Part shown: piece by piece, positions 61,638 through 63,253 of the stretch
Layout of the letters: every line of letters begins with the position of its first letter
Numbering within the stretch: the stretch's first letter is position 1
From: Bacteroidota bacterium
GTDB taxonomy: Bacteria; Bacteroidota; Bacteroidia; B-17B0; Aurantibacillaceae
Assembly: GCA_013298715.1 (NCBI GenBank)
Contig: JAAFIQ010000011.1
Coordinates: 1-64,000, forward strand
Direction of reading: 5' to 3'
DNA: 64,000 bases
Translations under genes and position numbers: made by a program
Notes under the pieces: generated by a model
Databases searched by the model: none
The model's input: the letters and a program-made list of their open reading frames with translations, nothing else
What the model was told of the DNA's origin: nothing

Positions 61638-61660
61638 TTTAACTTATTACTTTTCGTTAA

Positions 61661-61711
61661 ATTTTGTTTCGCCAAAATCGTTAAAAAATGGCTAAAATGG
61701 CGAAACAAAAT
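61661..61711. repeat. 51-bp palindromic unit 1
   Basis: ATTTTGTTTCGCCA (61661-61674) / TGGCGAAACAAAAT (61698-61711), 14-bp perfect stem. Confidence 0.88.
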
Positions 61712-61713
61712 TC

Positions 61714-63144
61714 TCATAATTCCACAAACAAATCATCTAATACTATTTCATTTTGAACTAAATCTAAGGCGTATTTATTTTTAATAAGCCCATTTGCAGT
61801 AATCATAGCAAGTACTACAGACTTTTTAGTTCTACTTAATTGTTTAAAAACTGATAACTTTAAGCGTAGCTTGTTTGCATAATCTGATGTAATTAAAAAA
61901 GATTCGCGCATAAATTTTATTTCACACACATTAATTATTCCATCTGCTCTGCTAATTAATAAATCAATCTGAGTTCCTTTAATTCCGTCTTTAGGTTTAC
62001 TTTTCCAAGTGCCATACTCACTTTGAATACCATCTATTTTTAATGCCTTTTTAATTTGGTTAATGTGTTGATGGCAAACATTCTCAAAGGCATAACCACT
62101 CCAAGTATTAACGCTTGGTGTGTTAAATAAGCTAAGCCAAGTATTTCCCTTTTTTACTGGATTATTTGCTATTTGTTGCAAATAAAAAAGTGTATACAAA
62201 TCCTGTAACTTGTATATTTTTTCGTTTTTAGTTTTATCTATAGGAATTATACTACTTATAAATCCAGAGTATTCAAGCTCTTCGATTATTGTTGTAAAGC
62301 CACCACCACTTTTTAATTTACTTTTTTTAATTAAAACTTCTCTACTCAAACCTTGAGGATGTTTACTTAATAGTTCTATCAACACATGATGAGAGTCTGA
62401 ATTATCGAATAACGAGCCTAATAATTCATTATACTCTAATTGCATTGGTGCGTTTTTTCTAAAGCATAATCTATCAATAGCCTGTGGTATACTTTCGCCT
62501 TTGTCAATTAAATCAAGATAATAAGGAATTCCGCCCAAAGCCATATATAATTTTGTAATTTCATTTCTGCTTGAAATTATATTCTTTCTCCTCAAAAAAC
62601 GTTCGGTTTCGGCTAAGGTAAAGGGTTCTAAAAAAATCCTATCAGTAACTCTATTATGCAAGCCGCCTTTATTTTTTAAAACTTTATTAATCATCCATGA
62701 TGCAGAAGAACCGCAAATAATAAATAATAAATCGGTGCGCTGGCTAGCATAACTGTTCCAAAAATCTGTAAAGGCTGTTAAAAATTTTGACTTATTAGTT
62801 GCCATCCAAGGGAATTCATCCAAAAAAATAACTTTCTTTTTTAATGACTTACTTTTATGTATAAATTGCTTTAAATTGTCAAATGCTTCAAACCAACTAT
62901 TGGGTTCAATTTTAGGCCTTGCACCAAAGTTTTTCATTGCTTTATGAAATCGCTCCAACTGATCGGGCAAAGTGCCTTTATGCAATCCTGTGAATTGAAA
63001 AAATAATTTATTCTGAAAAGTTTTTCTAATCAAAAAAGTTTTACCCACGCGTCTTCTGCCAAGTATAGCAACTAATTCAGATTTATCTGTATGCAATTTT
63101 TTTAGTAATTGCTGTTGCTCTATTTTCCTACCAATTAAATCCAT
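61714..63144 (-). CDS. AAA ATPase, archaeal/DUF234-like, with C-terminal PD-(D/E)XK nuclease-like motif
   Basis: AILGRRRVGKTFLIRKTF Walker A, VIFLDEFPWM Walker B, GTQIDLLISRADGIINVCEIKF nuclease-like motif. Confidence 0.88.
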   Translation of the reverse strand: MDLIGRKIEQQQLLKKLHTDKSELVAILGRRRVGKTFLIRKTFQNKLFFQFTGLHKGTLPDQLERFHKAMKNFGARPKIEPNSWFEAFDNLKQFIHKSKSLKKKVIFLDEFPWMATNKSKFLTAFTDFWNSYASQRTDLLFIICGSSASWMINKVLKNKGGLHNRVTDRIFLEPFTLAETERFLRRKNIISSRNEITKLYMALGGIPYYLDLIDKGESIPQAIDRLCFRKNAPMQLEYNELLGSLFDNSDSHHVLIELLSKHPQGLSREVLIKKSKLKSGGGFTTIIEELEYSGFISSIIPIDKTKNEKIYKLQDLYTLFYLQQIANNPVKKGNTWLSLFNTPSVNTWSGYAFENVCHQHINQIKKALKIDGIQSEYGTWKSKPKDGIKGTQIDLLISRADGIINVCEIKFMRESFLITSDYANKLRLKLSVFKQLSRTKKSVVLAMITANGLIKNKYALDLVQNEIVLDDLFVEL

Positions 63145-63148
63145 ACTT

Positions 63149-63199
63149 ATTTTGTTTCGCCAAAATTACAAAATTTTCACTAAAATGGCGATACAAAAA
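63149..63199. repeat. 51-bp palindromic unit 2
   Basis: ATTTTGTTTCGCCAAAATTACAAAATTTTCACTAAAATGGCGATACAAAAA, one stem mismatch in the core. Confidence 0.85.
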
Positions 63200-63202
63200 A
63201 TA

Positions 63203-63253
63203 TTTTTGTTTCGCCAAAATTAACAAAATAGGCATAAAATGGCGAAACTAAAT
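63203..63253. repeat. 51-bp palindromic unit 3
   Basis: TTTTTGTTTCGCCAAAATTAACAAAATAGGCATAAAATGGCGAAACTAAAT. Confidence 0.85.

Follow-up and report, generated by a model that had tools for sequence, protein, structure and literature searches.

Results

The locus and its predicted protein

The window, the whole 64,000-nt stretch of Bacteroidota DNA analysed here, carries a minus-strand gene at a convergent-gene site, with an MBOAT gene and a glycosyltransferase gene as neighbours. Three palindromic units surround this gene (Table 1), one (D) flush past the stop codon and two (U2 and U1) just ahead of the start, in agreement with the preliminary description of the locus. The arms of D are 100% complementary, and this unit ends 1 nt short of the stop-codon triplet. 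The three units share conserved arms around differing loops of about 23 nt, again as first described.

Table 1. Features of the ATPase-nuclease locus, in window coordinates
Feature	Position	Strand	Basis or remark
Palindrome D, flush after the stop codon	61660..61712		Arms 61660-61674 and 61698-61712, 15 bp, 23-nt loop
PDC-S27 ATPase-nuclease gene (ATPase_2 / DUF234), 476 aa	61714..63144	-	PADLOC and Pfam profile matches, AlphaFold2 model
PD-(D/E)XK-like nuclease, residues 371-476	61717..62034	-	D394, E408-x-K410; D-(x13)-E-x-K pattern
Winged helix-turn-helix, residues 246-315, predicted palindrome reader	62200..62409	-	AlphaFold2 model and covariation with palindrome arms
Walker B region, IFLDEFPWM, residues 105-113	62806..62832	-	F107, D109, E110, P112 and W113 invariant in 48 homologues
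Walker A, GRRRVGKT, residues 29-36	63037..63060	-	G29, R30-R32, G34 and K35 invariant in 48 homologues
Palindrome U2, covering the promoter, 4 nt before the ATG	63149..63199		One arm mismatch
Bacteroidota-type -7 promoter box TAATTTTG inside U2, sharing bases with the proximal arm	63161..63168	-	Sequence, consensus
Palindrome U1, distal upstream unit	63203..63253		54 nt from U2, start to start

The encoded protein matches the PADLOC PDC-S27 profile PDLC04984 over residues 2-473 of 476 (628.6 bits) and Pfam ATPase_2 with 63.1 bits (cut-off 33.2). The label "DUF234-like" given to it earlier is correct, since the match lies above the Pfam cut-off, but weak (22.8 vs 22.5 bits). The AlphaFold2 model (pLDDT 92.5) predicts an AAA/STAND-like ATPase core followed by a winged helix, made of helices 250-260, 268-275 and 281-292 and a two-strand wing, and by a C-terminal PD-(D/E)XK-like domain with strands 375-382, 391-399 and 403-410. 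The nearest solved folds to this predicted structure are an archaeal Walker ATPase (2qen), ORC/Cdc6 proteins and STAND proteins. The PDC-S27 catalytic residues, namely the Walker A and B motifs, D394, E408 and K410, are present in the window protein and invariant in 48 homologues, as is E354, which lies slightly N-terminal of the nuclease domain.

The genome of origin, 4,011,927 bp long, was analysed by pattern searches and protein searches. Within it, D and U1 are the only matches to a strict pattern in which TTTCGCCAN and TGGCGAAA are separated by 15 to 35 nt (U2 deviates by one mismatch); the reversed control of this pattern has 0 occurrences in the whole genome. The half-site TTTCGCCA alone is found 11 times in the window against 2.3 expected, with 5 of the 11 inside the D, U1 and U2 units. 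The genome-wide search proposed in the preliminary description thus finds the palindrome linked to the gene only, both in this genome (G000) and in G009; palindromes spread through the genome without a link to the gene family are not seen, nor is a gene that stays syntenic across relatives while its palindromes do not. Genome-dispersed REP-like repeats were considered and rejected: a looser GCCAAA...TTTGGC pattern is in excess in some genomes, but in G009 longer arms reduced this excess to 2 gene-linked copies and 3 chance-like matches.

Geometry of the palindromes across the family

Homologues 37-57% identical to the window protein, from several bacterial phyla, were scanned for palindromes. 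Of 62 homologues, 45 have a strong inverted repeat in the 170 nt upstream, as opposed to 3 of 67 neighbouring control genes (p=6e-17); in a control family, the related DUF4143 ATPases, the count is 5/29. The palindromes occupy the same positions in most homologues, with an arm sequence that differs per locus or clade. In 16 of 48 loci the upstream arms reappear on the downstream side of their gene, compared with 3.5% of mismatched pairs. Upstream centres are bimodal, near -85 and -35 from the ATG (U2-class centres, -40 to -30), and D-type centres, where D is present, fall at +20 to +30 after the stop. A downstream palindrome with its centre within 45 nt of the stop is found in 20 of 74 homologues and undetected in the other 54. 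The distance between adjacent upstream units is 52-55 bp in 21 of 27 spacings, and this holds for loci of Bacteroidota, Alphaproteobacteria and Chlamydiota; within any one of 33 loci, half-site spacing varies by no more than 1 bp. A sequence that varies while its geometry stays is the pattern expected from a protein that binds DNA on one face. Judged from these sequence comparisons, bracketing palindromes are a trait of the family, and their locus-specific arms follow the protein clade. The U1-U2-D layout is absent in more distant relatives (~25% identity).

Longer upstream arrays also occur: L020, L021, L029 and L061 have at least three palindromes with a period of 54-55 bp (87 bp in L061). 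Among the DUF4143 ATPases (PDC-S01-like) of the window's relatives, L175, L177, L185, L192 and L197, and more weakly L198, have a strong upstream palindrome, mostly near -55 to -10 or in tandem, so that this neighbouring family, too, may have self-operators.

The palindrome next to the start overlaps a putative promoter. TAnnTTTG is the Bacteroidota promoter -7 element, and it is found in the U2 position, from -48 to -14, in 42 of 58 Bacteroidota-like loci, the promoter being assigned by consensus only. Because U2 covers the -7 box, it would block transcription if occupied. Two roles had initially been offered for the palindromes, recognition or integration sites of the encoded protein and operators for self-regulation, and this overlap makes the second the better supported one.

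Covariation of the arms with the winged helix

As for recognition, covariation of their arms with the winged-helix segment makes it very probable that the palindromes are read by the encoded protein. The more alike two proteins are, the more alike their arms (Mantel r 0.36, 0/2000 permutations). When the protein is split into segments by the domains of the AlphaFold2 model and the other segments are held fixed, only the winged-helix segment covaries significantly with the arms (partial r 0.141, 2/500), the remaining segments giving 75/500 or worse. The effect is modest. Three arm metrics agree on it, and windows along the protein peak at residues 226-300, with a weaker secondary rise around residues 76-180. 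The tree joins the window protein to Saprospiraceae proteins with the same TTTCGCCA arms (support 100/99), and it places the four other paralogues of its genome, which have other palindromes, elsewhere.

Distribution and edges of the cassette

PDC-S27 matches are present in 8 of 60 genomes examined, and most relatives have none. The window's genome has five family members, G037 has 11 and two relatives of G037 have 9-10; some members reside on plasmids and phages. Paralogues within one genome are 35-64% identical at the protein level (five genomes) and their closest relatives are usually in other genomes; at such identities there is no sign of recent multiplication. G037, G087 and G090 have 9-11 PDC-S27 matches each; the G037 copies are diverged, most with a different palindrome, and this genome also holds 14 DUF4143 ATPases.

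Copies at different sites, with 71-79% nucleotide identity, can be aligned only between the outer edges of U1 and D. The alignments run from -110 to +48 (L041/L042), -108 to +46 (L008/L041), -111 to +51 (L008/L010) and -107 to +44 (L009/L042), and that of L062/L210 starts at -109. At this degree of divergence, the edges could instead come from selection that preserved binding sites once the neutral flanks had decayed; alone they do not prove transfer as a unit. The comparison with gene-less relatives that had been suggested for the locus provides independent support, in the form of two sites at which gene and palindromes are jointly lacking. In the window's genus, two genomes have gene and palindromes between dapD and cmk, and in at least nine others that possess dapD and cmk the interval contains neither; in Flavobacteriaceae the cassette adjoins trmD in L011 and L013, and in other genomes the corresponding spacer is plain and about 80-95 nt long. 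Given these shared edges and this joint absence, gene and palindromes behave as one unit. The palindromes are a property of the gene, not of the genome, and the notion of a repeat-bounded cassette holds. At the window locus itself an empty site is not definable, since the sequence that follows the MBOAT gene lacks conservation within the genus.

Other repeats were encountered during these comparisons. The pair L018/L039, 98.8% identical and from different genomes, was set aside as edge evidence because it has no clean edge and lies among other interspersed repeats. These two rumen Bacteroidales loci share a long repeat, GGCGCAATTAACACCATACAAGCGGC..., around the ATPase gene (upstream, -480 to -170), probably an unrelated dispersed repeat. 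In L146 (G081), from 2240, an insertion of ~210 nt follows dapD and is followed by a second dapD 3' end (LNDALREHNVAV), so that a direct repeat of this gene end flanks it on both sides. In the window's genus the dapD-cmk spacer resembles a hot spot for insertions, and the inserts differ between genomes.

Does the cassette move itself?

The flush fit of the palindromes to both ends of the gene had been taken to favour a self-mobilising unit. In such an autonomous element the palindromes would be the ends, and the ATPase-nuclease would cut and move U1-U2-gene-D between intergenic sites. Homology that stops at the palindromes between copies at different sites, cargo-free insertions at dapD-cmk and trmD, and the lack of shared flanks beyond the palindromes among the 11 and 9 copies of two congeneric species all point this way, as does the enrichment of sites between convergent genes (21/72 vs 13/115, p=0.003). 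However, near-identical copies within a genome are absent (at most 64% protein identity), the downstream end is undetected in most homologues, and one palindrome overlaps the promoter, as an operator would, while the end sequence differs per copy. Target-site duplication was looked for and none is visible at the window site, the empty dapD-cmk and trmD sites being too diverged to show one; nor was an excision product seen. G037 and G090 share no flanks beyond the palindromes, hence no shared or empty sites. With the downstream unit in only 20 of 74 homologues and such diverged paralogues, the argument from the flush fit is not supported, and we regard self-mobilisation as unlikely. A new kind of minimal element, in which one AAA/winged-helix/PD-(D/E)XK protein recognises lineage-specific palindromes at both ends of 1.6 kb and inserts into intergenic spacers, the same palindromes serving as operators, is equally unlikely.

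Palindromes without the gene in phage WO

In one Wolbachia phage WO the gene is found between gpC and gpD, which are head genes, and is preceded by two near-identical palindromes. Gene-less WO phages keep one ACCGCC...GGCGGT palindrome at the same gpC-gpD junction, where it is the sole copy in each of two 50-kb stretches tested. Its retention in WO phages that are missing the gene means that the palindrome can serve some role independently of the gene, which counts against the explanation that we favour below. It could be the remaining operator of a lost gene or, alternatively, a site to which the gene was attracted. The conserved WO palindrome, 33 bp with the form ACCGC(C/G)...(G/C)GCGGT, is found in L088 (3893-3981; MN180249.1), L095, L097, L098, L099, L112 (38236) and L113 (6833), and remnants of two palindromes are seen in WOKue (L097) and a wMel phage (L096).

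This arrangement is what a homing system could leave, with the palindrome as the recognition site in the empty allele and the nuclease promoting the copying of the gene beside it: gene-less WO phages hold the palindrome exactly where another WO phage carries the gene. Yet the hallmark of homing is a site present in the empty allele and destroyed when occupied, and the WO palindrome is kept in the occupied phage too; unlike the target of a homing endonuclease, the site stays intact. The empty dapD-cmk and trmD sites, moreover, have no such palindrome. Homing is for these reasons improbable, and more so than self-mobilisation.

DNA site or RNA hairpin

It is very unlikely that the palindromes are RNA hairpins (terminators, attenuators or mRNA stabilisers) unrelated to the protein. 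The D transcript does fold with z -5.7, and those of U1 and U2 with z about -2.9. Arm mismatches across the loci, on the other hand, show no G.T excess (23 G.T, 19 A.C), as expected from a DNA dyad and not from an RNA stem; together with the long loops (about 10-23 nt) and a search for terminator-like sites that found none, this makes a hairpin unlikely as the selected feature. The promoter covered by U2, the fixed 54-bp phasing and the covariation with the winged helix also disfavour a hairpin or terminator. Least probable of all is binding by a host regulator, an idea that draws on binding by the encoded protein being itself a prediction, and against which paralogues of one genome each have a different palindrome, palindromes track the protein clade across hosts, and the palindrome is found nowhere else in its own genome or in G009.

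Discussion

A proposed self-recognising, autoregulated one-gene cassette

Based on the above data, we propose that the locus is a self-recognising, autoregulated and horizontally transferred one-gene cassette of ~1.6 kb, a reading to which we assign a probability of roughly 0.6. Its anatomy, the family-wide geometry, the promoter overlap, the winged-helix covariation, the cassette edges and the joint presence and absence of gene and palindromes were computed directly, whereas binding, repression, the nuclease target, a defence role and the mode of cassette movement are inferred. Through its winged helix, the encoded protein would bind, as an oligomer, the palindromes on either side of its gene, and binding at U2, over the promoter, would repress that gene. 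Cooperative binding or looping could involve U1, which lies five helical turns upstream, and D, which follows the stop codon, as auxiliary sites. The ATPase-nuclease kept repressed in this way might be a defence-type effector (PDC-S27), released or activated by some trigger. Lineage-specific palindromes that travel with the gene would allow several cassettes to coexist in one genome with no cross-regulation, since each lineage brings its own sequence. Simple autorepression does not explain D, and many homologues are without it, both of which count against this proposal. The best-supported role of the palindromes is that of operators and cassette borders at once.

The palindromes offer a concrete handle on PDC-S27, in the form of a predicted ligand, a predicted expression switch and a defined cassette that can be transferred between laboratory strains. 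The many diverged pairs of protein and palindrome, with their fixed geometry, would constitute a natural set for reading the specificity rules of the winged helix, and the cassette is a candidate for a minimal self-regulated, horizontally moving gene.

Comparison with known systems

PDC-S27 is a common single-gene PADLOC phage-defence candidate from a computational screen, with 4562 bacterial and 3503 archaeal cases in a 2026 survey, according to which validation is pending for most such candidates (PMC12988326). The window protein shares with it a full-length profile match and an ATPase fused to a PD-(D/E)XK domain, and the window family likewise has a patchy distribution with horizontal transfer. 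By this resemblance in sequence, the window ATPase-nuclease is a phage-defence candidate. The text of that paper does not mention palindromes, and no published description of PDC-S27 palindromes was found in open-access papers; antiviral activity is putative there and here.

In predicted structure, the protein resembles STAND and ORC-Cdc6-like AAA ATPases (PDB 2qen, 1w5t, plant NRC proteins) by its ATPase and winged-helix fold. It differs from them by a C-terminal PD-(D/E)XK nuclease in place of sensor repeats, and by its own palindromic sites. With transposons and insertion sequences the cassette has in common precise ends shared by copies at different sites, here at 71-79% identity, whereas the window family is without near-identical copies within a genome (35-64%, five genomes).

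In REP/RAYT (TnpA-REP) systems, palindromes bracket a gene for a nucleic-acid enzyme and match the lineage of that enzyme, as in the window family. The window enzyme, however, is not a Y1/HUH transposase (Pfam finds only the ATPase and DUF234 domains, and the predicted fold combines AAA, winged helix and nuclease), its family's palindromes are not genome-dispersed (G000, G009), and the proximal one lies on the promoter. Restriction-modification systems with a C protein and toxin-antitoxin operons are patchy, multicopy modules that bind palindromic operators on their own promoter. The window cassette is like these autoregulated selfish modules in its palindromic operators on its own promoter, its patchiness and its multiple copies, with binding predicted; it differs from them in being one gene, in which regulator and nuclease would be fused, with an extra palindrome after the stop codon.
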